Source: Burkholderiaceae bacterium
GTDB taxonomy: Bacteria > Pseudomonadota > Gammaproteobacteria > Burkholderiales > Burkholderiaceae_C
Assembly: GCA_004299095.1 (NCBI GenBank)
Contig: SCQQ01000041.1
Coordinates: 1 to 38,572 of the forward strand
Reading direction: 5' to 3'
DNA: 38,572 nt
This document shows, piece after piece, positions 4,924 through 30,688 of this stretch. A program made the position numbers and the translations under genes. Under the pieces are notes generated by a model, which worked only from the letters and a program-made list of their open reading frames with translations, was not told the DNA's origin and did not search any database. Positions within the stretch are counted from its first letter, which is position 1, and every line of letters begins with the position of its first letter.

Positions 4924-6624
<1,701 letters not shown>

Positions 6625-12766: not shown

Positions 12767-12871
12767 AGGGCCGCCACCGAAAATCGAACGGTGCATGGGT
12801 TGCCGGCGCGGCGGTAGGTTGATCCGCGACCGCGAGGCGGAAAGATTTACGCGGCGGTTCGAACACTGCCC

Positions 12872-13792: not shown

Positions 13793-13802
13793 CGTCTGAG
13801 AA

Positions 13803-13817
13803 ATAAGAGCGTCTTAT
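13803..13817. promoter_or_regulatory. LysR-box palindrome in the divergent promoter
   Basis: ATAAGA-GCG-TCTTAT is a perfect 6+3+6 inverted repeat and contains the T-N11-A pattern expected of LysR-type operators. It sits only 11 bp upstream of the regulator's start and about 75 bp upstream of the CoA-transferase start, a position suited to autorepression and divergent activation. The symmetry is seen; the binding is inferred. Confidence 0.65.
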
Positions 13818-13891
13818 GGCTGAATTAGAACATCCTATTTGCGCTTGCGATCTGGCGTGCCTAGCATGAACCAAAACAACGCAGCAGGCCT

Positions 13892-15127
13892 ATGACAGCA
13901 ACCGGAGACAACCGCACCGGCGTGCGGACAGGAAACGATAAGGCGCGCCAAGGTGCCTTGGCGGACGTGCGCGTGCTGGATTTTTCCCGCGTCCGCGCCG
14001 GCCCGACGTGCGTTCGCATGCTGGCGGACTTCGGCGCCGACGTGGTGCGCATCGAGCCGCCCTCGGACACCGATCCGAACGCGGCCATGTTCGCCGAAGA
14101 CCGTCTGGGCGGCGATTTCCAGAATCTGAATCGCAACAAGCGGTCGCTATCACTCAATCTCAAGCGCCCTGAGGCGCGCGCGATCGTCGAACGCTTGGTG
14201 CAGGGCGCCGATATCGTGGTGGAAAACTGGCGCCCGGCCGTGAAGAAAAAACTCGGCCTCGATTACGAAACACTGTCGCGCATCAACCCCCGGATCATCC
14301 TTGCGAGTATTTCGGGCTACGGACAAAGCGGCCCTTATGTGGCGCGACCGGCGTTCGACCAAGTGATCCAGGGCATGGGCGGGCTGATGTCGGTGACCGG
14401 CCTGCCGGGGCAGGGCCCAGTGCGCGCCGGCATTGCCGTATCGGATTCGAGTTCCGGTCTTTACACCGCAATCGGCATTCTGCTGGCGCTGCACGAGCGC
14501 AGGAATTCGGGGCACGGGCAGTGGGTGCACACGTCGCTGCTGCACACCATGATCGCAATGATGGATTTCCAGGTGGCGCGCTTCCTGAACGACGGCGAGC
14601 TGCCGGCGCAGGAGGGCAACAACCATCCGACCACCTGCCCGATGGGGCTTTTCTCGGGCGCTGATGGGCTGTTCAATTTCGGCGTGGCGGGCGAAGGCAT
14701 GTGGCAGGCGTTTTGCGGCGTGATGCAGCAGCCCGGATGGGCCGGCGATCCGCGCTTCGCGAGCGCCGAGCTGCGCAGCCGCAACCGCGCCGAGCTGAAC
14801 CCGCTGGTGCAGGACATCCTGAGCACGAAGCCGGTGGCGCACTGGGTGGATGCGCTCAACGCGGCCGGTATTCCGGCGGGGCCCGTTTACAACGTCGAAC
14901 AGATGCTGGGCGATGCGCAGGTCCAGCATGCGCACGTGCATACGTCGGTGCTGGCGTATGGCAAGGCGGAGCGGCATTTCGTGACCCAACCCGTGATCCT
15001 CGAGCGCACGCCGGCACGCGTGGACACCGCCGCACCGGGGCTGGGCGAACACTCGGCCGAGGTGCTGGGCGAGCTGGGCTACAGCGCTGCCGAGATCGAC
15101 GGCTTCAGGGCGCAGAAGGTCATCTGA
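13892..15127 (+). CDS. Class III CoA-transferase (CaiB/BaiF family)
   Basis: 411 aa. Start at ATG 13892; an earlier ATG at 13866 gives only a nine-codon peptide. The family moves CoA between carboxylic acids through an aspartyl-CoA anhydride; the likely catalytic Asp is Asp156 in ARPAFDQVIQGMGG. Other family blocks: LDFSRVRAGPTCVRMLADFGADVVRIEPP, cited here for its LADFGADVVRIEPP core, LNRNKRSLSLNLK, VVENWRP and ILASISGYGQSGPY. It is the first gene of the locus and would activate the imported acid without ATP, using a donor such as succinyl-CoA. The crotonase gene begins one base after its stop, so co-translation is likely. The substrate is unknown. Confidence 0.88.
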   Translation: MTATGDNRTGVRTGNDKARQGALADVRVLDFSRVRAGPTCVRMLADFGADVVRIEPPSDTDPNAAMFAEDRLGGDFQNLNRNKRSLSLNLKRPEARAIVERLVQGADIVVENWRPAVKKKLGLDYETLSRINPRIILASISGYGQSGPYVARPAFDQVIQGMGGLMSVTGLPGQGPVRAGIAVSDSSSGLYTAIGILLALHERRNSGHGQWVHTSLLHTMIAMMDFQVARFLNDGELPAQEGNNHPTTCPMGLFSGADGLFNFGVAGEGMWQAFCGVMQQPGWAGDPRFASAELRSRNRAELNPLVQDILSTKPVAHWVDALNAAGIPAGPVYNVEQMLGDAQVQHAHVHTSVLAYGKAERHFVTQPVILERTPARVDTAAPGLGEHSAEVLGELGYSAAEIDGFRAQKVI

Positions 15128-15128
15128 T

Positions 15129-15944
15129 ATGGGCTCAGCGGGCGGTCACATGGAACAGGCAACGGGTCGAGTCATCGCGGAGACGCGAGCGGGCATCCTG
15201 AAAATCAGGATTGCCAACTCGGCGCGCTACAACGCGCTTTCCATGCAAATGTGGGAAGACCTGGGCGCGGCTGTGCGGAACGCGAGCGTGGATGACGCCA
15301 TCCGCGTGGTCGTGCTGACGGGCGACGGAACGCGTGCGTTTGCGGCCGGCGCCGACATCTCCGAGTTCGAGGATTTCCGCTCGGATCCAGCGCTGGTCCA
15401 GCGTTTCAACGCCGCGATTCATGGCGCGACGGCGGCGCTGGCGTCGTGCCGGCACCCGACCGTCGCCGTGATCCGCGGCATTTGCATGGGCGGCGGCATG
15501 TCGCTCGCGCAGGCCTGCGACGTCCGCTATTGCGCCGACGACGCACGTTTTCGCATGCCGGCCGGCCGGCTCGGGATCGGCTACGAGCCCGCGGGCATTC
15601 AGCGCATGGTCGATATGGTCGGCGCGGCGCGGACGGCGGACTTGTTCCTGACCGCGCGCACGTTTTCCGGCCGCGAAGCGGAACGGATCGGCTACGTGCA
15701 GGAGTGCTTTCCGGTGGAAGACTTTGCTGCGATGAGCGCGGCGCGCGTCGAGACCATCGCCGCGATGGCGCCGCTCACGCTGCGTGCTTTCAAGCTGGCG
15801 CTGCGCGCTGCCACGGGCGGAGCGGACGCACCGACGTCGAAGGCGGTGGAAGAAGCCTGCCTGGCCTGTTTCGACAGCGTCGACTATCAGGAAGGGCAAG
15901 CCGCGTTTCGCGAGAAGCGCGAGCCGCGCTTCCAGGGCCGGTGA
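15129..15944 (+). CDS. Crotonase-fold protein (enoyl-CoA hydratase/isomerase family) lacking the usual catalytic glutamates
   Basis: 271 aa from ATG 15129; ATG 15150 is an alternative, and neither has a clear ribosome site. The fold is evident from the oxyanion-hole segments AAGADISEF and GICMGGGMSLAQACD. In classical hydratases two glutamates follow GGGx and lie in the PExxLG block; here they are Ser125 (GGGMS) and Ala145 (MPAGRLGIG). Ordinary hydration of an enoyl-CoA is therefore unlikely. Crotonases with such changes act as hydrolases, isomerases, decarboxylases or C-C lyases. Its place between a CoA-transferase and a Mo-hydroxylase recalls 2-furoate-type loci, where a crotonase acts late on the oxidised CoA ester. 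That parallel is inference. Confidence 0.85.
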   Translation: MGSAGGHMEQATGRVIAETRAGILKIRIANSARYNALSMQMWEDLGAAVRNASVDDAIRVVVLTGDGTRAFAAGADISEFEDFRSDPALVQRFNAAIHGATAALASCRHPTVAVIRGICMGGGMSLAQACDVRYCADDARFRMPAGRLGIGYEPAGIQRMVDMVGAARTADLFLTARTFSGREAERIGYVQECFPVEDFAAMSAARVETIAAMAPLTLRAFKLALRAATGGADAPTSKAVEEACLACFDSVDYQEGQAAFREKREPRFQGR

Positions 15945-15980
15945 GGCGCTTTGGTCAGGCGGACGAATGGAGACGATGCA

Positions 15981-16535
15981 ATGGAAATGAGTGGCGACCG
16001 GGTGGTACCCGTTCCGCAGCAGGCCGCGTGGGACGCCTTGAACGACCCCGAAGTGTTGAAGGCATGCATCCCGGGTTGCGAATCACTGGAGAGCGATGCC
16101 GATGGCGGCTTCCACGCGGTGGTTCGCGTCGCGGTGGGGCCGGTGCGCGCCCGGTTCAAGGGCCGGGTCACGCTGTCCGACATCCTGGCGCCTGATTCCT
16201 ACACGCTCGCCTTCAAGGGCGAAGGCGCGGCCGGCTTCGCGCAGGGCGAATCGCAGGTTCGCCTGGTTCCGTCGAATTCGGCCGCCGAAACGGCGATCCA
16301 CTACACCGCCAACGCCAAGATCGGCGGCAAGCTGGCGCAAGTGGGCTCGCGCCTGATCGACGGGGCGGCGAACAAAATCGCGGGCGAGTTTTTTGCGAAC
16401 CTGACGCAGCGCCTGGGCGGCGATACGGCGGCGCCTGTCGGCGAAGGCGAACCGGTGGAGCAGTCCAAGGAAAAGAAGGGCATCCTCGGCTTCTTCAAAA
16501 AAGGCAAAGGCGGCAAGGACGCCGCGCCAGAATGA
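15981..16535 (+). CDS. CoxG-like SRPBCC protein of the Mo-hydroxylase operon
   Basis: 184 aa. ATG at 15981 follows GGAGA at 15969. CoxG/SRPBCC fold: the opening MEMSGDRVVPVPQQAAWDAL, then LKACIPGCESLE, then GPVRARFKGRVTLSD and FKGEGAAGFAQGES. The C-terminus is a Ser/Glu/Lys linker ending in a short hydrophobic, Lys-rich tail (KGILGFFKKGKGGKD), which looks like a peripheral membrane anchor. CoxG proteins accompany CO-dehydrogenase-type Mo enzymes and are linked to membrane recruitment and quinone delivery. Here it suggests that electrons from the hydroxylase go to the respiratory chain rather than to NAD. It lies directly upstream of the two large subunits. Confidence 0.86.
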   Translation: MEMSGDRVVPVPQQAAWDALNDPEVLKACIPGCESLESDADGGFHAVVRVAVGPVRARFKGRVTLSDILAPDSYTLAFKGEGAAGFAQGESQVRLVPSNSAAETAIHYTANAKIGGKLAQVGSRLIDGAANKIAGEFFANLTQRLGGDTAAPVGEGEPVEQSKEKKGILGFFKKGKGGKDAAPE

Positions 16536-16594
16536 CGTGCAACATCCGATTTTGCGGCCGACCGAACCCATGAAGTCGTGGTCAAGAATTTGAA

Positions 16595-18970
16595 ATGACG
16601 ATGGAGACAAACGCACAAAAAAGCGAGCGCACGCGGCACGGCGGCGCAGCGGAGCTGCTGCGCCTGGTGCGCGGGCAGGGGTGCTATCTCGACGATGTCG
16701 AGACGCCGAAAAACACGCTGCATCTGGCGTTCGTCCGCAGCCCGTATGCACGGGCGAAAGTGCGCGGCGTCGATACCCGCCAGGCCGCAAAGCTGGCCGG
16801 CGTGGTGCGCATCGTCACCGGCGCTGATCTGGAGCACGCCGTGCGGCCGCTCGGCGCGCGCCTCGAAGCGCGCGACGACTACACCTACCACGCGGCCGAC
16901 TGGCCGGCGCTCGCGAGCGCCGAGGCGCGCTACGTGGGCGAGGCGGTCGCGGTGGTGGCAGCCGACAGCCGCGCTCTTGCCGAAGACGCCGCGGCACTGG
17001 TGGAAGTGGACTGGGAGCCGCTGCCGGCGGTGTCGGACGCGGAGCGCGCGCTGGCGCCGGGCGCGCCGAGAGTCCATGCGAACCTGGCCGACAACGTGCT
17101 GTACCGCCAGCATGCCGGCAAGGCGAGCGACGCGCCTGAATTCGACGCGCCCGGTCTGATCCGCGTGAAAGGGCGCTTTCGCCATCCGCGCGTGGCCGGC
17201 CTGTCCATGGAAGCGCGCGGCGTGCTGGCCGACTACCACGTCAGCTCTGACGAGCTGACGGTCTGGAGTTCGACGCAGATTCCCCATTTGCTGCGCGATG
17301 CACTGAGCGAGAGCCTGGGGCTGCCCGCGTCCAACCTGCGCGTGATCGCGCCCGACGTCGGCGGCGCTTTCGGCATCAAAATGCAGGCGTTTCCGGAAGA
17401 ACTGACGGCCGCTTTCCTGGCCTATGTCCTGAAGCGGCCGGTCAAATGGGTGGAAGACCGGCTGGAGAATCTGCAGGCCGCCTGCCATGCGCGCGATGCG
17501 CTGGTGGATGCCGAACTCGCCGCCACGCCCGACGGCCGCATCGCCTGGATCCGGGCGAGCGGCATTTTCGACGTGGGCGCGTATTCCACGTTTCCGCTCA
17601 CCTGCGCGCTCGAGCCGGCCACGGCGGCGCCGGCGCTGCCCGGCCCTTACCGCGTGCCGTTCTTTGCTTATGAGGGCATCGCCGTGGCCACGAACAAGAC
17701 GCCCGAAGGCGCGTACCGCGGCGTCGGCGTGCCGGTGGGGCCGATCGTGACCGAAGGGCTGCTGAATGCCTTGGCGCATCAGCTCGGGCGCGATCCGGCG
17801 GAGCTCCGGCGCATCAACCTGGTGCGTGCCGAGGACTTTCCGTACACGAGCGCATCCGGCGCCACGTTCGACAGCGGCGATTACCAGAATCTGCTGCAGC
17901 TCGCTCTGAACCGCGCCGATTACGCCGGCTGGCGCCGCCGGCAGCAGGCAGAGCGCGCACACGGCAAGCTGGTGGGTGTGGGGGTGTGCTGCTTCATCGA
18001 GCCCACGGGCATGAACCGCAACACCTACCGCACGCGCGGCATGATCCAGGTGCCGGGCTTCGATGGCGCCATCCTGCGCGTCGATCCGGCCGGGCGCATC
18101 GAAGCGGCGGTGAGCATCCCCTCGCAGGGCCAGACCCAGGCCACCGCCTTCACGCAGCTGCTGGTCGAGTCGCTCGGCGTGGCGGCGGAAACCATCCACA
18201 TCACCCTAGGCGACACCGCGCGCACGCCCTACGGCTGCGGCACGTTTGCCAGCCGCGGCATGGTGGCGGGCGGCGGCGCGCTGCTGCAGGCTGCGCGCAA
18301 GCTGAAAGCCAAGGTGTGCAAGCTGGCGGCGCAGCACTGGGCCGCGGATGTGGCGCTGGTGCGCTATGCCGACGGCGGCGTGGTGCGCGGCGACACCGGC
18401 GCGCAGCTCAGCTTCCAGCAACTGGCCGAAATCGCGCATTCGCCGCTGCAGCGCCTCGACGCCGATTCCGAGCCGGGGCTGGAAATCCACACGTTCTACG
18501 ACCCGCCGGTGACGACGATCGCTGCGGGCGTGCATCTGGCGTTGGTCGAAGTGGACCGCGGCACCGGCCGGGTCACGATCCGCCAGTATGTGGTGGGCGA
18601 GGACTGCGGCCCCATGGTCAACCTCCAAGCGGTCGAAGGCCAGGTGCGCGGCGGCGTGGCGCAGGGCATCGGCACCGCGCTGCTGGAAGAAATCCGCTAC
18701 GACACAGACGGTCAGTTGCTGACCGCCACGCTTGCCGACTATCTGGTGCCCGGCAGTTGCGATGTGCCGAACATCGATGTGGTGCACCAGGAAACGCCTT
18801 CGCCCTATACCGAAGGCGGGCTCAAGGGTGTGGGCGAAAGCGGCGTGATCGGCGCGCCCGCGGCGATCTGCGGCGCGGTGCTCGACGCCATCGGCGTCTG
18901 GCCCGAGCGCGTGGACTTGCCGCTCACGCCCGAGCGGATCCTGAAGTGGCTGAATGCGAGAGGTGCGTGA
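16595..18970 (+). CDS. Molybdenum hydroxylase large subunit, first paralogue (CoxL/XdhB-like)
   Basis: 791 aa. Xanthine-oxidase/CO-dehydrogenase family large subunit that binds molybdopterin-cytosine dinucleotide. The N-terminal a/b-hammerhead domain (GQGCYLDDVETP, YVGEAVAVVAAD) is followed by Mo-cofactor domains with PDVGGAFGIKMQ, FPEE, the substrate loop AYRGVGVPVGP (Gly376 where CO dehydrogenase has Cys) and the catalytic base Glu748 in GLKGVGESGVIGAP. So it should hydroxylate an organic substrate with water, not CO. Its stop overlaps the start of a second large subunit, which is unusual. The two share a single medium and small subunit. Cytoplasmic; no Tat signal seen. Confidence 0.88.
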   Translation: MTMETNAQKSERTRHGGAAELLRLVRGQGCYLDDVETPKNTLHLAFVRSPYARAKVRGVDTRQAAKLAGVVRIVTGADLEHAVRPLGARLEARDDYTYHAADWPALASAEARYVGEAVAVVAADSRALAEDAAALVEVDWEPLPAVSDAERALAPGAPRVHANLADNVLYRQHAGKASDAPEFDAPGLIRVKGRFRHPRVAGLSMEARGVLADYHVSSDELTVWSSTQIPHLLRDALSESLGLPASNLRVIAPDVGGAFGIKMQAFPEELTAAFLAYVLKRPVKWVEDRLENLQAACHARDALVDAELAATPDGRIAWIRASGIFDVGAYSTFPLTCALEPATAAPALPGPYRVPFFAYEGIAVATNKTPEGAYRGVGVPVGPIVTEGLLNALAHQLGRDPAELRRINLVRAEDFPYTSASGATFDSGDYQNLLQLALNRADYAGWRRRQQAERAHGKLVGVGVCCFIEPTGMNRNTYRTRGMIQVPGFDGAILRVDPAGRIEAAVSIPSQGQTQATAFTQLLVESLGVAAETIHITLGDTARTPYGCGTFASRGMVAGGGALLQAARKLKAKVCKLAAQHWAADVALVRYADGGVVRGDTGAQLSFQQLAEIAHSPLQRLDADSEPGLEIHTFYDPPVTTIAAGVHLALVEVDRGTGRVTIRQYVVGEDCGPMVNLQAVEGQVRGGVAQGIGTALLEEIRYDTDGQLLTATLADYLVPGSCDVPNIDVVHQETPSPYTEGGLKGVGESGVIGAPAAICGAVLDAIGVWPERVDLPLTPERILKWLNARGA

Positions 18971-21357
18971 TGAGTGCTGTCAGCGTGAAAGGGCAATTCA
19001 TAGGGCACGGAGTGCCCAGGCGTCCGGAAATCTTGCGCTTCATCAAGGGGCAGGGCCGTTACCTGGACGATATCGACCTGCCGCACATGCTGCACGCGGT
19101 GGTGCTGCGCAGCTCGCACGCGCACGCCCGCATCCTCGGCATCGACGCCACGCGCGCGCGCCAGATGCCGGGCGTCGTGGCGATCATCACGCCCACCGAG
19201 GTGGGCGACAAGCTGCGGCCGATTCCGGTGCGCCTCAATCCCTACAACACGCTGGACCCGTATTTGCAGATGCCGCTGGCCACCGACCGCGTGCGCTACG
19301 TGGGCGAGCCGATCGCGCTCGTCGTGGCTGCCACGCAGGCGCTGGCCGAGGACGCGCGCGACCAGATCGAGGTCGATTTCGAGCCGTTGCCGGTCATGAC
19401 CAACGCCGAAAGCGACAAGGTCGAATGCGCGCTGTTCGACAAGGCGCCCGACAACGTGTCGGCGCGCATCACCTCCCGGTTCGGCGACATCGATGCCGTA
19501 CTGGCCAGCGCAGATGAAGTCGTCGACTTCGATTTCCGCACTGGCCGCGACAGCGCCGTGCCGCTGGAAACGCGCGGCCTGCTGGCACGCTTCGACGAAG
19601 GCGCCGACCGGCTGGAAGTCTGGGGCGCGGCCAAGGTGGTGCACTTCAACCGCACGGTGCTCGCCGGCATGCTCGACTTGCCCGAATCGAAAATTCGCCT
19701 GGTGGAACCCGACGTGGGCGGCGGCTTTGGCGCGCGCGGCGAGTTCTATCCGGAAGATTTCCTGGTTCCGTTTGCCGCGCTGTACACGCACCGGCCGGTG
19801 AAGTGGGTGGAAGACCGCATGGAGCACCTGCTCGCGATCAACCATTCGCGCCAGCAGAGTTACCACATGACGTTGGGCGTGCAGCGCGACGGCACGCTGC
19901 TCGGGATCAAGATCGACTTGGTGAACGACATGGGCGGCTATTTGCGCACCCACGGCATCATCGTGCCCGAAATGTCGGCGGGTTTCTTCCCCGGACCGTA
20001 CCGCTGGAAAGCGTATGCCTGCACGGCGCGCGCCGTCATGACCAACAAGACGCCCACCGGCACCTACCGCTGCCCGGGGCGCTTCGAATGCAACGCGGCG
20101 CGCGAGCGCATTCTGGACGTGGCCGCGGCCCGGCTTGGCATGGACCCGGCCGAACTGCGTCGCAAGAACCTGATCCCGCCCGATGCCATGCCCTACAGCG
20201 TGGGCACGCATGCGCTCGGCGAAGACGTGGTGTACGACAGCGGCGACTACCCCGCAGCGCTGGCCGAAGTGCTGCGGCTCTCCAACTACGAAGCGCTGCG
20301 CAGCGCGCCGCGCACCGACAGCCGCCACATCCGCGGCGTGGGCCTCGGCTGCTTCACGGAAAAAACCGGCAAAGGGCCGTTCGGCGGCGCGCGCGTGCTG
20401 GTGGACTCCAGTGGCACCGTCGAAGTGCGTACCGGCGCGTCCAACCTCGGCCAGGGGCTGGAAACCAGCTTGGCGCAAATCGTCGGCGATGTGCTCGGCG
20501 TGGATCCGCGCGTGATCGTGGTGCGCCATGGGGACACCGACCTGATTCCGTTCGGTGTCGGCAGCTTTGCCAGCCGCGCCACCGTCATGGCCGGGAACGC
20601 CGCGTACCAGGCGGCCGAAGTCATTCGCGACCGGGCAGTGGGCATCGCTGCCAACGCCTGGGGGGTCGCGGCCGACCAGGTGCGGTTTGAAAACGGCGCG
20701 GCGCTTGCATCCGATGGCCGCAGCCTGATGCTGCACGCCATTGCGCAGCAATCAGGCCCAGCGCATTCGGGCGATCCCGAGGCCACGCTCGACGTCACGC
20801 GCTACTTCAAGTGCGACCACATGGTCTACTCGCACGGCGCGGTGGTGGCCGAAGTCGAACTCGACCGGCTGCTGGGCAAAGTCAAGCCGCTACAAATCTG
20901 GGTGGTGTACGACGTCGGCACTGTCATCAACCCCGAAATCGTGGCGGCGCAGGTGGAAGGCGGCGCAGCGCAGGCCGTGGGCGGCGCTTTCCTCGAAGAA
21001 TTCATTTACGACGACGAAGGCCAGTTGCTTACCGGCTCCTTCATGGACTTTTTGCTGCCGACCGCCGACGTGGTGCCGACCATGCACCACGAAGACCTGA
21101 AGCGCTCGCCGTCACCGCTCAATCCACTGGGCGTCAAGGGCACCGGCGAAGCCGGCGTGGCTGGCACCGGCGCGGCGCTTGCCAATGCGGTGGCCGATGC
21201 GCTCGGCCGCGGCTTTGGCGACCACGTGAACCAGCTGCCGATGACGCCGCAGCGCGTCTGGACGTGGGCGGGGCTGGACGGCGCCACCCCCCGCGGCGCT
21301 GGCGCGGCCGACGCCCGCACCCCATTACGCGCCGCCGTTGCCGAGGACATGAAATGA
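18970..21357 (+). CDS. Molybdenum hydroxylase large subunit, second paralogue
   Basis: 795 aa. ATG at 18970 overlaps the previous stop (TGATG). The same architecture as its neighbour: GQGRYLDDIDLP, YVGEPIALVVAA, PDVGGGFGARGEFYPED, FASRATVMAG and the catalytic base Glu727 in GVKGTGEAGVAG. The substrate loop differs: TYRCPGRFE with Cys368 at the position of the metal-linked Cys of form I CO dehydrogenase (AYRCSFR), although the residues after it do not match. The final ~35 residues are Ala/Arg-rich with no family motif. It overlaps the FAD-subunit gene by ATGA. Either the two large subunits form a heteromer or they give two enzymes with different specificities using the same electron-transfer subunits. 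Confidence 0.88.
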   Translation: MSAVSVKGQFIGHGVPRRPEILRFIKGQGRYLDDIDLPHMLHAVVLRSSHAHARILGIDATRARQMPGVVAIITPTEVGDKLRPIPVRLNPYNTLDPYLQMPLATDRVRYVGEPIALVVAATQALAEDARDQIEVDFEPLPVMTNAESDKVECALFDKAPDNVSARITSRFGDIDAVLASADEVVDFDFRTGRDSAVPLETRGLLARFDEGADRLEVWGAAKVVHFNRTVLAGMLDLPESKIRLVEPDVGGGFGARGEFYPEDFLVPFAALYTHRPVKWVEDRMEHLLAINHSRQQSYHMTLGVQRDGTLLGIKIDLVNDMGGYLRTHGIIVPEMSAGFFPGPYRWKAYACTARAVMTNKTPTGTYRCPGRFECNAARERILDVAAARLGMDPAELRRKNLIPPDAMPYSVGTHALGEDVVYDSGDYPAALAEVLRLSNYEALRSAPRTDSRHIRGVGLGCFTEKTGKGPFGGARVLVDSSGTVEVRTGASNLGQGLETSLAQIVGDVLGVDPRVIVVRHGDTDLIPFGVGSFASRATVMAGNAAYQAAEVIRDRAVGIAANAWGVAADQVRFENGAALASDGRSLMLHAIAQQSGPAHSGDPEATLDVTRYFKCDHMVYSHGAVVAEVELDRLLGKVKPLQIWVVYDVGTVINPEIVAAQVEGGAAQAVGGAFLEEFIYDDEGQLLTGSFMDFLLPTADVVPTMHHEDLKRSPSPLNPLGVKGTGEAGVAGTGAALANAVADALGRGFGDHVNQLPMTPQRVWTWAGLDGATPRGAGAADARTPLRAAVAEDMK

Positions 21358-22235: not shown

Positions 22236-22266
22236 GCCGCGGAACGATCATCGAGAGGTAACGCAA

Positions 22267-22806
22267 ATGACATCGAATGAACCCACCCTGCGTACCGTTC
22301 ACCTGAACGTGAACGGCGTGGATGTCGAGCGCACGGTCGAGCCGCGCATGAGTCTCGCGGATTTCCTGCGGCACGAGATCGGCCTGACCGGCACCCACCT
22401 GGGCTGCGAGCACGGCGTGTGCGGCGCCTGCACGGTGATGCTCGATGGCGCCCCGGCGCGCTCCTGCATCCTGTACGCGGTGCAGGCCGACGGTCACAGG
22501 ATCACGACGGTCGAGGGGCTCGCCACCAGCGAAGACGAACTCCATCCCGTGCAACAGGCGTTCTGGGAGCACGGCGCGCTGCAGTGCGGCTTCTGCACCT
22601 CCGGCATGCTGATCAGCGCGGTCGACCTGCTGAAGCGCAACCCGGATCCCACGGAGCAGGACGTGCGCGAGGCGCTCTCCGGCAACCTGTGCCGCTGCAC
22701 CGGCTATCAGCCCATCGTGGCGGCGGTGCTGGACGCGGCCAAGCGCCTGCAGGCCGGCAAAGCGGCGCAGACCACGCGCCATGAAGATCTGGAGCGCACC
22801 GTATGA
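22267..22806 (+). CDS. Molybdenum hydroxylase 2Fe-2S small subunit (CoxS-like)
   Basis: 179 aa. ATG at 22267 follows GAGAGG at 22253. The plant-type ferredoxin N-terminal domain carries a cluster on Cys47, Cys52, Cys55 and Cys67 ([15 protein letters not shown]). The helical C-terminal domain carries the second on Cys107, Cys110, Cys142 and Cys144 ([16 protein letters not shown]). All eight ligands are present. It links the Mo site of the large subunit to FAD. The tail after residue 160 is slightly longer than usual. It closes the enzyme part of the operon; two strong hairpins separate it from the transporter genes. Confidence 0.94.
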
Positions 22807-22810
22807 ACGA

Positions 22811-22875
22811 GCCCGCGCGGATCCGGTGGCGCGGGCAGGGAAAAGCCGCGTGGCAGCGTGACCGCTGCCGCGCGG
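22811..22875 (+). terminator. Two tandem hairpins between the Mo-hydroxylase and transporter genes
   Basis: First hairpin: GCCCGCGC (22811-22818) pairs with GCGCGGGC (22829-22836). Second: CCGCGTGGCAGCG (22846-22858) pairs with CGCTGCCGCGCGG (22863-22875), 13 pairs with one G-U and a TGAC loop. There is no U-tract, so this is probably an attenuator, an mRNA stabiliser or a weak terminator rather than a full stop. It may set different expression of the enzyme and importer genes. Confidence 0.5.
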
Positions 22876-22946
22876 TTGTGGGGTGATTCGGGCACTGGGC
22901 CCTGAAGTAAGCTGTTCATCATCGAAACACAGACAAGGAGACAACC

Positions 22947-24245
22947 ATGCGCACCTACAAACGCATACTCGGAGCGATCGCCCTCGCGTCGCTGATGGCG
23001 CCGCTGGCACTGGCGCAGGGCGACAAGCCGGCGGAGCTGAAAGTCGGCATCGTCACCTTTATGTCCGGTTCTGGCGGAGTCGTGGGCGGCCCGAGCGTCG
23101 ATGCCGCCAAATTGCTGGTCAAGCAAATCAATGCGGCGGGCGGCGTGGATGGCGTTCCGCTGAAAGTCCAGTATGTGGACGAAGAAGGCGGCGTCAGCCG
23201 CAACATCGCGAACTACCGGCAACTGGCCGGGAACGTCGACGCGGTGATCGGCTATGTGTCCAGTTCCGACTGCCTGGCCGTTGCGCCCGTGGCCGAAGAG
23301 CTCGGAATGTTGACGATCCTGGCCGACTGCACCACCGATTCGCTGTTCGAAGGGCACCACTACAAATGGGTGTTCCGCACGCAAATGCCGTCGTCGTCCA
23401 ATGCCCTGGCCGGCGCGCTCTATCTCGCCAAGATGAAGCCGGACATCAAGTCGGTGACCGGCATCAATCAGGACTACGCGTTCGGCCGGGACGAGTGGAA
23501 GTATTTCTCCGCGGCGGTGGGCAAGTTCCTGCCCAAGGCGAAGATCGAGTCGCCGATCTTCACCAAGCTTTTCACCAACAACTATTCGAGCGAAATATCG
23601 CGTCTCTTGGCGCAAAACGCCGACCTGATTTATTCGAGCTTCTGGGGCGGCGACAACGTCGCTTTCGTACAGCAGGGTTCCGCCCGTGGCCTGTTCAAGG
23701 ATGGCCACGTGATGATGTCGCTCATCACGCAAGGCGATCTCGAGGGCATGAAAGCCATGCCGGACGGCGTGATGGGCGGCTCCGAGAGCAGCTACCTGTT
23801 CCACAACGGGCCGTTCGAGAACGAGAAGCTCGCCACGTTCGTGAAGCAGTACCACGAAGCCACCGGGCAATACCCGATCTCGACGTACCCGTACACCATG
23901 CGCCGCAGCATCAACGCGCTGGTGGGTGCGTACAAGAAAGCGATTGCGGCCAACAACGGCAAGTGGCCGTCCAAGGACGACATCGTGAAAGCCATGGAAG
24001 GGCTGAAAGTCGACACCGTGCTCGGCACGATGACGATCCGCAAGGACCACCAGGCGAGCTACCACGAGATCTACGGCATGACGGTGAGCACCGACAAATA
24101 CCCGTTCAAGGTGTTCACCAACATCATCACCTTTCCGCCGGATCTGATCCTGGCGCCGGAAGGCACGACCGACGTGGCAGCGTGGATCAAGTCGCTGCCG
24201 GCCTCGACGCTGGACAAGGTGCCGGCGCCCGTTTCCTACAAATAG
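22947..24245 (+). CDS. ABC transporter periplasmic binding protein, branched-chain amino acid/aromatic acid type
   Basis: 432 aa. ATG at 22947 follows AAGGAGA. The Sec signal peptide MRTYKRILGAIALASLMAPLALAQ, quoted here only as its core ALASLMAPLALA, is probably cleaved after the final ALA. The mature part is a type I periplasmic-binding fold (LivJ/LivK-like): LKVGIVTFMSGSGG, VDAAKLLVKQINAAGGVDGVP, then VIGYVSSSDCLAVAPVAEEL and DYAFGRDEWKYF. Such proteins in aromatic-catabolic loci bind benzoate-like or other carboxylic acids as often as amino acids. It begins a complete importer operon (five genes) placed after the enzyme genes, so its ligand is probably the pathway substrate. Confidence 0.9.
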   Translation: MRTYKRILGAIALASLMAPLALAQGDKPAELKVGIVTFMSGSGGVVGGPSVDAAKLLVKQINAAGGVDGVPLKVQYVDEEGGVSRNIANYRQLAGNVDAVIGYVSSSDCLAVAPVAEELGMLTILADCTTDSLFEGHHYKWVFRTQMPSSSNALAGALYLAKMKPDIKSVTGINQDYAFGRDEWKYFSAAVGKFLPKAKIESPIFTKLFTNNYSSEISRLLAQNADLIYSSFWGGDNVAFVQQGSARGLFKDGHVMMSLITQGDLEGMKAMPDGVMGGSESSYLFHNGPFENEKLATFVKQYHEATGQYPISTYPYTMRRSINALVGAYKKAIAANNGKWPSKDDIVKAMEGLKVDTVLGTMTIRKDHQASYHEIYGMTVSTDKYPFKVFTNIITFPPDLILAPEGTTDVAAWIKSLPASTLDKVPAPVSYK

Positions 24246-24278
24246 GGCTGTGCGCGGAAACTTGGCCTGGGCCACGGT

Positions 24279-25196
24279 ATGGGTTTGACGATCGCCATTT
24301 TGTTGAACGGCGTGATTGCCGGTTCGACGCTGTTTCTGGTGGCGGTCGGCCTCACGCTGATCTTCGGCGTGCTCAACATCCTGAACATCGCCCACGGCAG
24401 TTTCTATGCGTTCGGGGCGTTCACGGCGGCCAGCATCTCGTTGCTGCTGGCCAAGCTGGGGGCGTCGCCGTACTTGCTGTACCCGGCGTTTCTGCTGGCC
24501 GCGATCTGCATCGGCGGCGCGCTTGGGCCGCTGGTCGAGCGCTATCTGCTGCGCTGGACGTACACCGTGGCGCAATTCCAGGCGCAGCGTGAATACATCC
24601 AGTTGCTGGCCACCTACGCGATTTTCCTGGTGTTCGAAGGGGCGCAACGCCTGATCTGGGGCGTGCAGCCGTATTACACCGGCGAGGCGCTCACGCAACT
24701 GGGCCAGACCAAGGTGGCCGGCATCCCGTACACCAATTACCAGCTTTTCATCGTGATTCCGGCGGCGGTCGTGGTTTTCATCCTGCTGCGCTGGGCGCTG
24801 CGGCGCACCGTGATCGGGCGGCTCACCGTCGCCGTGTCGGAAGACGCTGAGATCTCGGCCAGCATGGGGATCGACGTCCGCAAGGTGTATCTGATCAGCT
24901 TTGCCGTGGGTTCCGGGCTGGCGGTATTGGCCGGCGCGCTGGAATCGCCCACGATCGGTGTCGCGGTCGGCATCGGTGCGGACACGGTCATCCTGTCGTT
25001 TGCGGTGATCGCCATCGCCGGCTTGGGGCAGATCGAGGGCACCGCGCTCGCGGCGCTGGGGGTGGGCATCGCCCAGGCAGCCGCGGTCTTTCTTTACGAG
25101 GAGATGAGTTCGGTGGTGCCGTACCTCATCATGTTGCTGGTGCTGATCATTCGGCCTTACGGCATTTTTGGCTCGGCGCAGCGGCGCAAGATATGA
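24279..25196 (+). CDS. Branched-chain-type ABC transporter permease (LivH family)
   Basis: 305 aa. Start at ATG 24279, 33 bp after the binding-protein gene; no strong ribosome site. LivH family: the start ILLNGVIAGSTLFLVAVGLTLIFGVLNILNIAHGSFYAFGAF (the core NIAHGSFYAFGAF is diagnostic) and about eight hydrophobic segments. The cytoplasmic loop SEDAEISASMGIDVRKVYL contacts the ATPases, and the C-terminus (LIIRPYGIFG) is typical. It forms the inner-membrane channel with the LivM-type protein. The setting is a five-gene importer operon. Confidence 0.92.
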   Translation: MGLTIAILLNGVIAGSTLFLVAVGLTLIFGVLNILNIAHGSFYAFGAFTAASISLLLAKLGASPYLLYPAFLLAAICIGGALGPLVERYLLRWTYTVAQFQAQREYIQLLATYAIFLVFEGAQRLIWGVQPYYTGEALTQLGQTKVAGIPYTNYQLFIVIPAAVVVFILLRWALRRTVIGRLTVAVSEDAEISASMGIDVRKVYLISFAVGSGLAVLAGALESPTIGVAVGIGADTVILSFAVIAIAGLGQIEGTALAALGVGIAQAAAVFLYEEMSSVVPYLIMLLVLIIRPYGIFGSAQRRKI

Positions 25197-25249
25197 CGCC
25201 GATCCGGAAATCCCGGCCTGCGCACGCTTGAGACGACTCGAACAAAGAC

Positions 25250-26203
25250 ATGAGTTATCTGCGACGCGCCCTCTTCATCCTCGCCATCGTGCTGTTCGCC
25301 GCGGTGCCGTTGACGAATTCTTCGGTGCCCTACCAGTTCACCATCATCCTCGCGAGCGGCCTGGCGACCTTGGGCGTGGTCGTCTTGCTGCGCGCCGGCC
25401 TGATTTCCTTCGGGCACGGGCTGTATTACGCGACCGGCGCGTATGCCGTGGCTTATCTCGCACCCGTGCTGCACGTGAATGCGCTGCTGGTGGTGCTGGC
25501 GGCCACCGCCATTGCCGGGGTTCTCGCCGCCGTCATCGGCCTGTTCATGGTGCGCTATCGCGGCGTGTTTTTCGCCATGCTGAACCTGGCGCTTTCGATG
25601 GTGGCGTACACGGTGCTGTTGAAGTTCTACAACCTGACCGGCGGCTCCGATGGCATGCAGGTGAGCACGCTGCAATTCTTCGGCCTGGCGCGCAAGGACC
25701 CGAGCTTTCTCTATCTGCTGCTGTACCTCACGCTGGCGCTCGTCGTCGTCGTGGGCTGGCTGCTCACGCGCTACCTGGATTCGCCGCTGGGCTGGGCGCT
25801 GACCGCGATCGAGAACAACGAAACGCGCGTTGAATACATGGGTAAGCCGGTCAAAAAAATCCTGCTGCTCGCCTACACCTTGTCGGGGTTGCTGGCCGGA
25901 TTGGGCGGCGCGATCACCGCGGTTGCCGTGGGCTACGTCGATCCGGGCTTCGCCTACTGGCTCAAATCGGCCGAGTTCCTGGTGATTGCGGTGCTGGGCG
26001 GCGTCGGCAGCGTGGTCGGGGCCTTCGGCGGCGCGCTGATTTTTGAAATGCTCAGCATCAACGCGGCGCAATACCTCACCAACACCTGGGGCATCCTGCT
26101 GGGGATCGCGATCTACGCGATCGTGCGCTTTGCCCCCAAGGGGCTCTGGGGTTTGTACGACGCCTGGTGGCGCCTGCGCGGCGCGAGGGTCACGCATGAC
26201 TGA
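25250..26203 (+). CDS. Branched-chain-type ABC transporter permease (LivM family)
   Basis: 317 aa. ATG at 25250. Family landmarks: the early segment LISFGHGLYYATGAYAVAYL, the conserved loop TAIENNETRVEYMGKPVKK, GGAITAVAVGYVDPGFAYW and GGVGSVVGAFGGALIFE, with about nine membrane spans. It pairs with LivH in the inner membrane. Its stop overlaps the start of the first ATPase gene by eight bases, implying coupled translation. Confidence 0.92.
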   Translation: MSYLRRALFILAIVLFAAVPLTNSSVPYQFTIILASGLATLGVVVLLRAGLISFGHGLYYATGAYAVAYLAPVLHVNALLVVLAATAIAGVLAAVIGLFMVRYRGVFFAMLNLALSMVAYTVLLKFYNLTGGSDGMQVSTLQFFGLARKDPSFLYLLLYLTLALVVVVGWLLTRYLDSPLGWALTAIENNETRVEYMGKPVKKILLLAYTLSGLLAGLGGAITAVAVGYVDPGFAYWLKSAEFLVIAVLGGVGSVVGAFGGALIFEMLSINAAQYLTNTWGILLGIAIYAIVRFAPKGLWGLYDAWWRLRGARVTHD

Positions 26204-26948
26204 AGCGCCGCAACCCGCGCTGTTGCTGCAAGCCAGGGGACTCGCCATCAGCTTCGGCGGCGTGCACGCCGCGCGCGACATCAGCATCGACGTGTACGAG
26301 CACGAGCGGCTCGCCATCATCGGGCAGAACGGCGCCGGAAAAAGCACGTTCCTGAACATGTGCACGGGCTATCTGCGCCCCGAAGCGGGGCAGGTGGTCT
26401 ATCGCGCGCGCGACATCACGCGCTTGACGCCGCACGAGATCGCGCGGCTCGGCATCGCCCGCGCGTTCCAGCACCCGCAGGTGTTCATCGAGCACACCGT
26501 GCTCGACAACCTGCGTTTCGCCTCGTCGGCGTGCGGTGGCTTCTGGCAGGGATGGCGCGGCGTGCGCAGCCCAAGGTATGACGACAAGGCACGCGAGTTG
26601 GCGGCGCTGTTCCGGCTGGAAAGCGTGACGGAAAAGCGTGTTTCCGAGACTTCGGAGGGCACGCGCAAGCTGCTCGACATTGCCATGGCGCTGGCGTTGG
26701 AGCCGCGCCTCTTGATGCTGGACGAGCCCACCAGCGGCGTCAGCGCCGAGGACAAGTTCAAGGTCATGGACACGCTGCGCGATGCGCTGGACATCCGCGG
26801 CGTGGCCGCCGTGTTCGTCGAGCACGACATGGACGTGGTGCGCAACTACGCCGAACGCGTGGCGGTCTGGGTGGAAGGCCGGATCCTGGCTGCCGGCCCG
26901 CCCGATGACGTGCTGCACGACCCGCGCGTGCTGGAGAGCGTGCTGTGA
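26196..26948 (+). CDS. Branched-chain-type ABC transporter ATPase (LivG family)
   Basis: 250 aa. ATG at 26196 lies inside the end of the permease gene. Walker A is GQNGAGKST (near residue 46), the Q-loop is in ARAFQHPQVF, Walker B is LLMLDEPTSG and the switch His is in VEHDMDVV. The signature motif is TSEGTRKLLDIAMAL in place of canonical LSGGQ, a variant known in this ATPase group. It acts at the cytoplasmic face of the importer. It overlaps the next ATPase gene by GTGA. Confidence 0.91.
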   Translation: MTEAPQPALLLQARGLAISFGGVHAARDISIDVYEHERLAIIGQNGAGKSTFLNMCTGYLRPEAGQVVYRARDITRLTPHEIARLGIARAFQHPQVFIEHTVLDNLRFASSACGGFWQGWRGVRSPRYDDKARELAALFRLESVTEKRVSETSEGTRKLLDIAMALALEPRLLMLDEPTSGVSAEDKFKVMDTLRDALDIRGVAAVFVEHDMDVVRNYAERVAVWVEGRILAAGPPDDVLHDPRVLESVL

Positions 26949-27655
26949 CCGCGGATTTGGCACTGGCCGTCGCCGGGCTCTCGGTGGAGTTGGGCGGAAC
27001 GCGCATCCTGCGTGACGTCACGCTCGACGTGGCGTCGGGCTCGACGGTGGCTTTGATTGGCCGCAACGGCGCCGGCAAGACGACCACGCTGCGCGCCATC
27101 ATGGGGCTCGTCGCCCGGCAGGATGGCACGATCCGGTTCCATGGCGCCGCCGTGGACGGCTTGGCGACGCATCAGCGCGCGCGCCTCGGGATCGGCTATG
27201 TGCCGGAAGATCGCCGCATGATCAGCGCGCTGTCGGTGGAAAGCAATGTGCTGCTGCCGGCCGATGCCTGTAAGCTGGCGGCAGGCGAGCGCGGCGCCCG
27301 GCTGGAGCGGGTGTATGCGCTGTTGCCGGAGCTCACGAAAATGCGCGAGCGCTCGGCCGGTTCACTGAGCGGCGGGCAGCAAAAAATGGTCGCGCTGGGA
27401 CGCGCGCTCATGATTGGCAGTCGCCTGCTGTTGCTGGACGAGCCCTTCCAGGGTTTGTCCCCGGCGCTGTCGCGCAACTACGCGGAGACGCTCGCCGGCT
27501 TGCGCGAGCGGGACAGCGAACTTGCGATTCTGGTGGCCGAAGCCAATCCGGCGCTGCTGCGGCCGCTAGCCGGGATCTGGTACGCCATCGAGCGCGGTGC
27601 GGTCACGCGCCAGGACGCGGGTGCGCCCGCGCCCGCACCGGTGCATTCGGGGTAG
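26945..27655 (+). CDS. Branched-chain-type ABC transporter ATPase (LivF family)
   Basis: 236 aa. The GTG at 26945 overlaps the previous stop. Walker A is GRNGAGKTT, followed by TLRAIMGLV, the family block GIGYVPEDRRM, a canonical signature LSGGQQKMVALGRAL and Walker B LLLLDEPFQGLSP. In place of the usual histidine, the switch region reads LVAEANP, which is common in LivF proteins. It is the last of five transporter genes, completing a binding protein, two permeases and two ATPases. Confidence 0.91.
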   Translation: MTADLALAVAGLSVELGGTRILRDVTLDVASGSTVALIGRNGAGKTTTLRAIMGLVARQDGTIRFHGAAVDGLATHQRARLGIGYVPEDRRMISALSVESNVLLPADACKLAAGERGARLERVYALLPELTKMRERSAGSLSGGQQKMVALGRALMIGSRLLLLDEPFQGLSPALSRNYAETLAGLRERDSELAILVAEANPALLRPLAGIWYAIERGAVTRQDAGAPAPAPVHSG

Positions 27656-27750
27656 CGGAAATGGATCACGGCTGTCCAATTTCGTCGCAGTTCACATCAT
27701 CGAGCGGCCGCTGAGCACGGCCGCCGCGGTACCCGTTTTCAGGAGATCAC

Positions 27751-28611
27751 ATGCCCCAAGTCACCACCACCGACGGCGTTACGCTGTACTACGAAGAGAC
27801 GGGAACCGGCACGCCCGTGGTTTTCGTCCACGAATTTGCCGGTGACTACCGCACTTGGGAGCCACAGATGCGGCATTTCGGCCGTTCGCACCGGTGCGTG
27901 ACGTTCAGCGCGCGCGGCTATCCACCGTCTGACGTGCCGGAGGATGCGCACGCCTACGGCCAAGCGCGCGCCTGCCAGGATGTGGTCGATCTGATGGATG
28001 CCCTGAAGATCCCGAAAGCGCACGTCGTCGGCCACTCCATGGGCGCCTACACCGCATTGCACATGGGAATCCGCCATCCCGAGCGCTGCATTTCCGTGGT
28101 GGCCGCGGGTTGCGGCTGGGGTTCGAATCCGGGCGAACGCGCCGCCGCGCGGCAAGCGTGCCAGGACATCGCCAAGCTGTTTCGCGAGCAGCCGATCGAA
28201 GCGGCCGCCGAGCAATACGCCCATGCGCCGATGCGACTGACCTACAAGGCCAAGGACCCGCGCGGCTTTGCCGCTTTTGCCGCCATGCTGGCCGAGCATT
28301 CCGGACCAGGCTCGGCGATGACCATGTTGAACCTGCAGATGGAGCGCCCGACGCTGCCCGAGCTGGAAGCCGAGCTGAAGCGCTTTTCCGTGCCGCTGCT
28401 GGTGATCGTGGGCGACGAAGACGGCCCGTGTCTCGATGGCAGCGTGTTCCTGAAGAAGACGGTGCCGACCGCGGCGCTGCTCGTCGTGCCACGCACCGGC
28501 CACACGATCACCAGCGAGGAGCCAGAAACGTTCAACCGCGCGGTCACGCAGTTGTTCCAGGATGCCGAGTCGGGCAACTGGCTGACGTTCAAGCGCTATC
28601 TGCAGGAATAG
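27751..28611 (+). CDS. Alpha/beta hydrolase of the second catabolic locus
   Basis: 286 aa. ATG at 27751 follows CAGGAGA. Alpha/beta-hydrolase fold related to 3-oxoadipate enol-lactonases and C-C bond hydrolases: VVFVHEFAGDYRTWEPQM (oxyanion region), nucleophile Ser96 in VGHSMGAYTAL, acid probably in GDEDGPCLDG and His251 in RTGHTITSEEPE. No signal peptide. It lies 95 bp after the ABC importer and 51 bp before the SDR gene, in the same direction, so it probably acts on a late intermediate such as a lactone or a ring-opened ketone. The substrate is not recognisable from sequence. Confidence 0.85.
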   Translation: MPQVTTTDGVTLYYEETGTGTPVVFVHEFAGDYRTWEPQMRHFGRSHRCVTFSARGYPPSDVPEDAHAYGQARACQDVVDLMDALKIPKAHVVGHSMGAYTALHMGIRHPERCISVVAAGCGWGSNPGERAAARQACQDIAKLFREQPIEAAAEQYAHAPMRLTYKAKDPRGFAAFAAMLAEHSGPGSAMTMLNLQMERPTLPELEAELKRFSVPLLVIVGDEDGPCLDGSVFLKKTVPTAALLVVPRTGHTITSEEPETFNRAVTQLFQDAESGNWLTFKRYLQE

Positions 28612-28662
28612 GACAGACCCTTTCCTGATTTTTCCAAACCCATCAACCCACAGGAGAACGTG

Positions 28663-29472
28663 ATGGAACTGCAACTCAAGGACAAGAAAGCACTGGTGAC
28701 CGGCGGCAGCCAGGGCATCGGCAAAGCCATCGCGCTGGCGCTGGCGCAGGAAGGCGTGGACGTGGCGATCTGCGCCCGTACCCTCGCGCCGCTGAAAAAA
28801 GTGGCCGACGAAATCGCCAAGGCGACCGGCCGCAGGATCGTTCCGATCGCGGCCGATTTGACGTCCGCCGCTGACGCCGAGCGCTTCGTGACGGAGGCGC
28901 ACCAGGCGCTGGGCCGCATCGACATCCTGGTCAACAACGCGGGTTCGGCGCCCGGCGGCGTGATCGAAACGCTCACCGAAGACGACTGGGCCAAGGCGCT
29001 GCAACTGAAGTTCATGGGCTACGTGCGCTGCATCCGCTACGCGCTGCCGATCATGGCGAAGCAAGGCGGCGGCCGCGTGGTCAATCTGATCGGCAACGAC
29101 GGCGTGAAACCGTCGTACTGGGAAATCGCACCCGGCGCAGCCAACGCCGCCGGACAGAACCTGACGAAATCGCTGGCCGGGCAGTACGGCAAGCACAACA
29201 TCAGCTTCGTCGCCGTCAACCCGGGGCCGGTAAACACCGAGCGCTGGGACGGGTTGGTGAAAGCCATGTCGCGTGACATGCATTTGCCGTACGAAGAAGC
29301 CGACAAGCTCGCGCCCGCGTCGATTCCCATGGGCCGCATCGTCGAGCCGGTGGAAGTGGCCAACCTGGTCACCATGCTGGCGTCGCCGCTGATGCATTAC
29401 GTGACGGGGACCATGATCGAAATCGACGGCGGGCAGGAAAAATCGTTGATGGATCGGTCGCGCGATCGTTGA
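28663..29472 (+). CDS. SDR-superfamily protein lacking the YxxxK catalytic motif
   Basis: 269 aa. ATG at 28663 with AGGAG at 28652; GTG 28660 is also possible. The Rossmann cofactor motif is intact (VTGGSQGIGKA near residue 10, then ILVNNAG). At the site where classical members have YxxxK, this protein reads PGAAN (Pro157, Asn161) before the usual helix (AAGQNLTKSLAGQYG), followed by AVNPGPVNTERW and the C-terminal IDGGQEKS. I recall other SDR proteins with a GAANAA-type replacement, so this may be a defined subgroup rather than decay. It may act as a lyase or isomerase, or use another proton donor. The final gene of the locus. Confidence 0.82.
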   Translation: MELQLKDKKALVTGGSQGIGKAIALALAQEGVDVAICARTLAPLKKVADEIAKATGRRIVPIAADLTSAADAERFVTEAHQALGRIDILVNNAGSAPGGVIETLTEDDWAKALQLKFMGYVRCIRYALPIMAKQGGGRVVNLIGNDGVKPSYWEIAPGAANAAGQNLTKSLAGQYGKHNISFVAVNPGPVNTERWDGLVKAMSRDMHLPYEEADKLAPASIPMGRIVEPVEVANLVTMLASPLMHYVTGTMIEIDGGQEKSLMDRSRDR

Positions 29473-29712
29473 TTCGGCGGCGGTTCACGAGAGCACAGGC
29501 GCCGCACGCCGGCCTGGACGGCTTGGCCCGCGTGCGGTGGCCGATCCCACCCGTCACGGGCCACCCTTCGCAGCGTTGTCGCACAGTGGCTGGAGATGAG
29601 GGCAACGCTCCAACTTGGACGATGTTGGCCAGTTACGCGTTGAGGCGCGCCTCGGAGGGCTTTGAGGCAGCGAAGCCAGGATTCGGCAGCGTGTTGATCG
29701 ATTTCAGTTCGT
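29473..29712. other. Intergenic stretch, no supported gene
   Basis: It separates the end of the Mo-hydroxylase locus from the convergent chimeric LysR gene. Short open frames occur on both strands, but none has a start site, a family motif or consistent codon use. No clear terminator was found. Confidence 0.5.
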
Positions 29713-30624: not shown

Positions 30625-30688
30625 GTCGTGCATCCTCCGCTGAAGTCGTACTGAAACGGGAGAACTGCTTGTTTGAAGCGCGCATTCG

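Follow-up and report, generated by a model that had tools for sequence, protein, structure and literature searches.

Two unlike molybdenum hydroxylase large subunits in a Burkholderiaceae operon that may degrade a heteroaromatic carboxylic acid

We analyzed a 38,572-nucleotide stretch of DNA from a Burkholderiaceae bacterium (contig SCQQ01000041.1 of assembly GCA_004299095.1; hereafter the window). Within it, open reading frame (ORF) listing and family searches delimited a cluster of 14 genes at 13892–29472, all on the + strand, with a divergent LysR gene at 12872–13792 on the − strand. The cluster encodes two full-length molybdenum (Mo) large subunits, referred to as LS1 and LS2, against one FAD subunit and one 2Fe-2S subunit, along with coenzyme A (CoA) enzymes and a Liv-type importer. 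We tentatively read it, with a probability of roughly 0.37, as an operon by which a heteroaromatic carboxylic acid, most likely an N-heteroaromatic one, is taken up and degraded through CoA chemistry. The parts list is ordinary; three of the active sites, and a paired large-subunit unit that recurs across phyla, are unusual.

An earlier sequence-only reading of this DNA had listed these gene families and knew of no described pathway with exactly this set. Pfam and NCBIfam searches recovered every family it had named, on the + strand and in the same order, as well as the divergent LysR gene. In line with the second statement, no close whole-locus homologue of known substrate appeared among plasmid records (none of which covers 80% of 13800–29600), the 80 of 351 confirmed loci kept from our genome_contigs scan, or the genomes of the order. 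The genes are listed below; LivM, LivG, LivF, the alpha/beta hydrolase and the short-chain dehydrogenase/reductase (SDR) were placed by strong NCBIfam matches under the curated cut-offs.

13892–15127, +, family III CoA-transferase (PF02515, 394 bits)
15129–15944, +, crotonase-fold protein of the PRK06127 subfamily (NCBIfam, over cut-off; Ser and Ala replace the two hydratase Glu)
15951–16535, +, CoxG / SRPBCC accessory protein (PF06240, 108 bits)
16595–18970, +, LS1, Mo large subunit, tentatively of Qor/Ndh type (Pfam Ald_Xan_dh_C, MoCoBD_1, MoCoBD_2; PDB match; tree)
18970–21357, +, LS2, Mo large subunit of Kdh type (Pfam Ald_Xan_dh_C, MoCoBD_1, MoCoBD_2; PDB match; tree)
21354–22235, +, FAD subunit, the sole one in the cluster (PF00941, PF03450)
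22267–22806, +, [2Fe-2S] subunit, the sole one in the cluster (PF00111, PF01799)
22947–24245, +, periplasmic binding protein, Peripla_BP_6 (PF13458, 171 bits)
24279–25196, +, LivH-type permease (PF02653)
25250–26203, +, LivM-type permease (NCBIfam UrtC/LivM, below cut-off)
26196–26948, +, LivG-type ATPase (NCBIfam UrtD/LivG, below cut-off)
26945–27655, +, LivF-type ATPase (NCBIfam UrtE/LivF, below cut-off)
27751–28611, +, alpha/beta hydrolase (NCBIfam MenH/PcaD, below cut-off; alignment)
28660–29472, +, AerF-like SDR (residue alignment; AlphaFold2 model; Foldseek)

Two large subunits of different type on one small-subunit set

LS1 and LS2 are Mo hydroxylases of the xanthine dehydrogenase family: both carry the MoCo domains and the catalytic Glu, and FAD and 2Fe-2S partners are encoded with them. 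In the PDB, LS1 matched quinoline 2-oxidoreductase (1t3q, 525 bits), CO dehydrogenase (8uem, 503) and 6-hydroxypseudooxynicotine dehydrogenase (7dqx, 354), and LS2 matched 7dqx (531 bits), 8uem (424) and 1t3q (414). By sequence score, the best characterized relatives of both subunits are N-heteroarene hydroxylases. Quinoline 2-oxidoreductase (Qor), the closest solved relative of LS1, has one large subunit per enzyme, unlike the cluster. Thirteen NCBIfam models matched each of LS1 and LS2, and none of them names the furoyl-CoA dehydrogenase family.

The two subunits were aligned with 129 other rows (loci L002–L107 and L118–L132; identical rows merged, L001 and matches shorter than 650 residues left out), and a quick maximum-likelihood tree of 81 rows was built from 78 of the 131 aligned rows plus three references, omitting 43 CO dehydrogenase-like rows of L062–L107 and ten of L036–L061. 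LS2 was placed with KdhC in a 27-row clade (SH-aLRT 99). An 11-row group (SH-aLRT 99) tentatively unites LS1, QorL and NdhC; its inner order is not resolved, LS1 sits on a long branch in it, and the score of LS1 with 8uem is close to that with 1t3q. A recent tandem duplication of the large subunit was rejected, as LS1 and LS2 are only 37% identical and lie in different clades.

CoxL Gln240, Cys388 and Glu763 correspond to Gln228, Gly376 and Glu748 in LS1 and to Lys222, Cys368 and Glu727 in LS2, the CoxL numbering having been verified against the alignment. The catalytic Glu is kept in 130 of the 131 rows, the exception (L059) being cut by a contig end. The AYRCSFR loop of form I CO dehydrogenase is absent (AYRGVG in LS1, TYRCPG in LS2), and the NCBIfam CO dehydrogenase models scored below cut-off. 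Cys368 might suggest that LS2 is a CO dehydrogenase, but this was rejected on two grounds: the loop is missing, and the other rows of the Lys clade all have G, A or S at that position.

The Gln240 position is occupied by Gln in 100 of the 131 large subunits, by Lys in 26, by Arg in 4 and by Met in 1. Together with KdhC, whose residue there is His and not the Lys of LS2, the 26 Lys rows form the 27-row clade. Because five pairs among the Lys rows are more than 90% identical, these are not 26 independent cases. All four Arg rows are LS1 subunits of Chloroflexota (L029, L030, L031, L038), so that in these pairs both subunits depart from the usual Gln (Arg in LS1, Lys in LS2). Genome G047 of the same order (L021–L027) holds several LS2-type paralogues, with six Lys-type rows from six places, which may be a sign of local expansion of the LS2 clade in that genome. 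The clade with Lys in place of Gln offers a natural test of the residue adjoining the Mo centre.

A Lys-type LS2 was found in seven of the 80 kept loci (L028–L033 and L038), and five of these (L029, L030, L031, L038 and L033) also have an LS1-type partner; LS1 was not seen in L028 (a 7.5-kb contig) or L032 (a 9.7-kb contig). The pair recurs in four loci of SAR202/Dehalococcoidia-type Chloroflexota (L029, L030, L031, L038) and in one betaproteobacterial metagenome-assembled genome (L033). The gene order is FAD-FeS-LS1-LS2 in L029, L030 and L031, the same with other ORFs between in L038, and FAD-LS1-FeS-LS2 in L033, where a binding-protein gene and Liv genes come next. One FAD and one 2Fe-2S gene were matched at each of the five paired loci, and in L030 a further large subunit, of Gln type, is encoded on the opposite strand at a distance of about 7.6 kb. 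The Chloroflexota loci resemble the window in that the same two unlike subunits share one FAD/2Fe-2S set; L030 and L031 also have a window-type SDR without the catalytic Tyr (52–53% identity) directly after LS2. The Chloroflexota loci differ in the Arg of LS1 and in that no CoA-transferase match was found in the fetched stretches. Given the two types and the recurrence in another phylum, the unlike pair is not a local oddity.

The abundance figures count genomes whose best match is strong; no more than two candidates from each genome were scored for LS2 and in some SDR scans, and no more than six otherwise. LS2-type subunits occurred at E ≤ 1e-145 in 20 of 399 genomes of the order, and at E ≤ 1e-150 only the window's own genome was found among the 369 of the class sample. 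Plasmid records matching LS2 at E ≤ 1e-100 numbered 54, all below 60% identity.

In the open-licence literature, we found no description of a Mo hydroxylase in which one small-subunit set serves two full-length large subunits; a "four-component" 3-hydroxypyridine dehydrogenase may be a precedent. SAR202 bacteria have many Mo-hydroxylase paralogues, for whose function PMC5395668 offers only speculation. A betaproteobacterial operon in which the unlike pair comes with a regulator, an importer and CoA enzymes would be a tractable route to the role of such enzymes.

Atypical residues in the SDR and the crotonase

The SDR has Gly, Pro and Asn in place of the catalytic Ser, Tyr and Lys, and it retains the TGxxxGIG nucleotide motif. 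It lacks the Ser and YxxxK of a classical SDR alcohol dehydrogenase; an ordinary SDR encoded nearby (30689–31447) has the normal catalytic residues. The same Gly/Pro/Asn replacement is found in L128, L021, L121 and L123 (74–75%), and in L030 and L031. The only PDB sequence match at E ≤ 1e-35 was 6jh7, AerF of Microcystis aeruginosa, and the top four Foldseek matches of the AlphaFold2 (AF2) model (mean confidence, pLDDT, 85.9) were AerF chains. Like the window protein, AerF (6jh7, 6jha, 6jhb) lacks the Tyr, with Gly replacing the Ser and Asn the Lys. It differs in being a biosynthetic enzyme of the Choi moiety, with 38% identity in the Foldseek alignment. Nearest fold and sequence, shared loss of the triad and the NAD(P)H motif place the window protein with the AerF-type SDRs, and since this nearest relative is a double-bond reductase, a similar activity is predicted.

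SDRs of this type were found at E ≤ 1e-70 in 6 of the 399 order genomes, and all six are within the 20 with an LS2-type subunit. The hypergeometric values (7e-9, or 1.4e-7 when the window genome is excluded) take no account of shared ancestry and were not relied on. The SDR gene shares a cluster with Mo genes in the window and in three other genomes (G047, G581, G701), and in G544 it stands beside a FAD gene only, before the contig ends. The only plasmid record matching it at E ≤ 1e-70 was Paraburkholderia L128.

The CoA-transferase covers PF02515 profile positions 1–366 of 366 and is a family III member; Asp is present in 9 of 9 aligned rows at what we take to be the nucleophile position. Its best NCBIfam match, succinate-glutarate CoA-transferase, is below cut-off. 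Matches at E ≤ 1e-115 were found in 47 of 300 order genomes, so the CoA-transferase alone is not rare. Relatives at 54–66% identity adjoin an enoyl-CoA hydratase-family (ECH) gene in L130, L132, L161, L162, L164 and L165.

The crotonase-fold protein (161 bits in Pfam) passes the PRK06127 cut-off (321 versus 291 bits), and that model is named "enoyl-CoA hydratase". The catalytic Glu residues of enoyl-CoA hydratase are 144 and 164 in rat numbering. Opposite the two Glu of EchA8, the window protein has Ser and Ala and therefore lacks both, which makes hydratase activity unlikely as judged from the residues. Homologues also vary at these two sites (L130, 47% identity; L132, 42%, with one Glu kept; L128, 39%). 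The alpha/beta hydrolase has Ser (GHSMG), Asp and His motifs in the alignment, and its counterpart in Paraburkholderia L128 is 66% identical; the neighbours there are an ECH gene, an AMP ligase instead of a CoA-transferase, and the 75% identical SDR, and an amidase-like ORF lies next to a BMP-type transporter (both identified by eye).

Proposed pathway and competing explanations

Gene content, subunit types, residues and recurrence are direct results; from them, we infer the substrate class, the order of steps, one complex rather than two, and the roles of the hydrolase and crotonase. The Liv-type importer would bring in a heteroaromatic carboxylic acid, and the CoA-transferase, acting before or after the hydroxylations, would convert it to the CoA thioester with no need for ATP. 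The Mo enzyme would hydroxylate the ring with oxygen from water; LS1 and LS2, on their common FAD and 2Fe-2S subunits, probably act at successive ring positions, and a double hydroxylation adjacent to the ring nitrogen would yield a dioxo ring. The AerF-like SDR may then reduce the ring C=C conjugated to the new carbonyl, and the alpha/beta hydrolase, the atypical crotonase or both may open the ring or cleave a C-C or acyl bond. The sequence-only reading had suggested acid uptake, CoA transfer, hydroxylation and ring opening. Its outline is borne out by a catabolic gene set on one strand that combines CoA chemistry with a Mo hydroxylase and an importer; on the residue evidence, the crotonase departs from ordinary hydratases and the SDR from ordinary alcohol dehydrogenases.

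Double hydroxylation, reduction and hydrolytic opening are proposed because Ndh/Kdh-type subunits, an alpha/beta hydrolase, an AerF-like SDR and CoA activation occur together. A route from isonicotinate through citrazinate to citrazyl-CoA is known. Isonicotinate or a similar pyridine carboxylate, which fits the step types best, is our guess at a candidate substrate; literature searches found no gene-level paper on the isonicotinate route. The nearest parallel on the Mo side is plasmid pAO1, where Ndh and later Kdh hydroxylate the same pyridine ring of nicotine and the alpha/beta hydrolase of the next step is encoded beside kdhL (PMC6122326). LS2 groups with KdhC and, tentatively, LS1 with NdhC, and the two hydroxylations of one ring, followed by a hydrolase, offer a parallel. 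Each pAO1 enzyme has its own FAD and 2Fe-2S subunits (PMC6122326), unlike the cluster. The pAO1 stretch, with 23 features listed, includes no CoA-transferase or crotonase, unlike the window. The nitrogen reading is also supported by neighbours elsewhere, namely amidases with the CoA-transferase, ECH or hydrolase genes (near the CoA-transferase-ECH pair in L130, L132, L161 and L165, and near the CoA-transferase and hydrolase in L163) and carbamoylase/M20 genes with the SDR and hydrolase (L166–L168).

Several observations weigh against an N-heteroaromatic substrate or against a single pathway. The main weaknesses are the missing amidase and the close score of LS1 with CO dehydrogenase. An N-heteroaromatic route would need an amidase, imidase or deaminase somewhere, and the cluster yielded none of these. 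CO dehydrogenase (8uem) nearly equals 1t3q for LS1 and beats it for LS2; LS1, LS2, KdhC and the LS1 of L033 carry long-branch flags in the quick tree, and the relatives of LS2 at 37–48% identity do not fix a substrate. Four of the six genomes with both SDR and LS2 types belong to one genus. The SDR occurs without a Mo gene matched nearby in G580 (L140), without one within 14 kb in Paraburkholderia L128 (75% identity) and, as a more distant Tyr-less form (36–39%), without Mo genes nearby in L166–L168. The CoA-transferase relatives of L130, L132 and L161–L165 also have no Mo genes nearby, so this part could be a module of general use. Sphingobium L169 has hydrolase-ECH-CoA-transferase, in that order, together with VOC and FAH-family genes, which indicates carbocyclic aromatics.

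The 2-furoate (Hmf) pathway proceeds through a CoA thioester, a furoyl-CoA dehydrogenase of the xanthine dehydrogenase family and a crotonase, like the cluster, with a ligase and one large subunit, unlike it. A similar route for an O- or S-heteroaromatic acid (furoate, thiophene carboxylate), in which the CoA-transferase replaces the ligase, the Mo enzyme hydroxylates the thioester and the crotonase opens the ring, would bring a CoA-activating enzyme, a xanthine dehydrogenase-family enzyme and a crotonase together and would account for a cluster in which no nitrogen-releasing gene was found. We consider it rather unlikely, as the best-scoring characterized relatives of both large subunits are N-heteroarene hydroxylases. 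A substrate with a cyclic amide or imide, or an open amide acid, seems improbable to us. There, the CoA-transferase, crotonase and hydrolase would act on a dicarboxylate half-amide while the Mo enzyme oxidized a lactam-like ring. Amidase and polysaccharide-deacetylase genes flank the CoA-transferase-ECH pair in L130 and L132, and amidase-like, deacetylase-like and isochorismatase-like ORFs, identified by eye, flank the LS pair in L029; however, neither an amidase nor a deacetylase was found in the window cluster, and the characterized N-ring relatives act on aromatic rings.

The number of hydroxylations can be questioned independently. LS1 and LS2 could be alternative catalytic subunits for different substrates, or one could be mainly structural, giving one hydroxylation and not two in succession. 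The single FAD and 2Fe-2S set is consistent with this, as are LS2-clade members that have their own FAD and 2Fe-2S genes and no LS1-type neighbour (L028, L119, L129). The catalytic Glu and the GQ motif region are kept in both subunits, however, and the same unlike pair is retained in two phyla, so we judge this explanation unlikely. It is quite improbable that position alone links a Mo-hydroxylase unit to a functionally separate, general acyl-CoA unit that includes the importer. The CoA-transferase relatives without Mo genes (54–66%) would fit such a division, as would the SDR, hydrolase and ECH genes together without Mo genes in L128; against it stand the tight one-strand spacing, with LS1 and LS2 sharing base 18970 and LS2 and FAD overlapping by 4 bases (21354–21357), and the clustering of SDR, hydrolase, CoxG, FAD, 2Fe-2S and LS2-type genes in genus g20 as well.

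A further scheme is conceivable, which we regard as doubtful. A Mo hydroxylase with two unlike active sites (Gln, or Arg in Chloroflexota, and Lys) on a single electron-transfer set would hydroxylate a heteroaromatic acid or its CoA thioester twice, and a Tyr-less SDR would then carry out reductive dearomatization, in both betaproteobacteria and SAR202-type Chloroflexota. The searches made found no description of such a dearomatization route with a two-site Mo hydroxylase.

Regulator, importer and genomic setting

12872–13792, −, divergent LysR-type regulator (Pfam HTH_1 and LysR_substrate; best NCBIfam match NAC, 208 bits versus a cut-off of 309)
13803–13817, no strand assigned, candidate LysR operator in the divergent gap (ATAAG-N5-CTTAT, a T-N11-A inverted repeat; direct sequence reading)

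The inverted repeat is a putative site, matched to what we take to be the LysR-operator consensus. Pattern scans of 12700–30000 gave no promoter-like sites, the divergent gap included, and terminator-like sites at chance level (14 found versus 12.9 expected). The start of CoxG is probably ATG 15981 or 15987, not the listed TTG 15951.

The PDB relatives of the binding protein (22947–24245) reach only E values of 1e-12 to 1e-8, and a structure-based ligand guess was dropped because the AF2 model was unusable (pLDDT 39.9). Liv-type importers also adjoin other Mo-hydroxylase genes in L033, L131 and L145; the importer is therefore no peculiarity of this locus.

Upstream on the same strand, box-type genes extend across 2028–12766: an AMP ligase (2028–3674), a PaaA/PaaC-family protein (6489–8099), a reductase with Fer4 and NAD-binding domains (8170–9531), a thiolase-like protein (9663–10877) and a second AMP ligase (10973–12766), which is PRK12582-like. 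In a DNA search, boxC and boxB of Mycetohabitans matched 4977–8083 at about 74% identity. These box (benzoyl-CoA) genes indicate that CoA-type aerobic ring catabolism is native to this DNA. The source genome has two XdhC/CoxI matches, both on other contigs, so maturation of Mo hydroxylases is plausible. Downstream, 29713–30633 (−) is a chimeric ORF in which about 32 residues of an SDR N-terminus are fused to a LysR effector domain without the helix-turn-helix; it looks like a deletion scar.

Two further sets of plasmid genes were observed. On the alphaproteobacterial plasmids of L166–L168, a cassette combines an aminotransferase, the Tyr-less SDR, an alpha/beta hydrolase (47%) and a carbamoylase/M20-family hydrolase, with differing transporters. 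On a Bradyrhizobium elkanii plasmid (L146, 4082–16207), another Mo-hydroxylase cluster contains enoyl-CoA hydratase-related, FAD, 2Fe-2S, lactonase-family, Mo large-subunit and SDR genes, and further an AMP ligase, a binding protein, an HpaB-like protein and CoxG.

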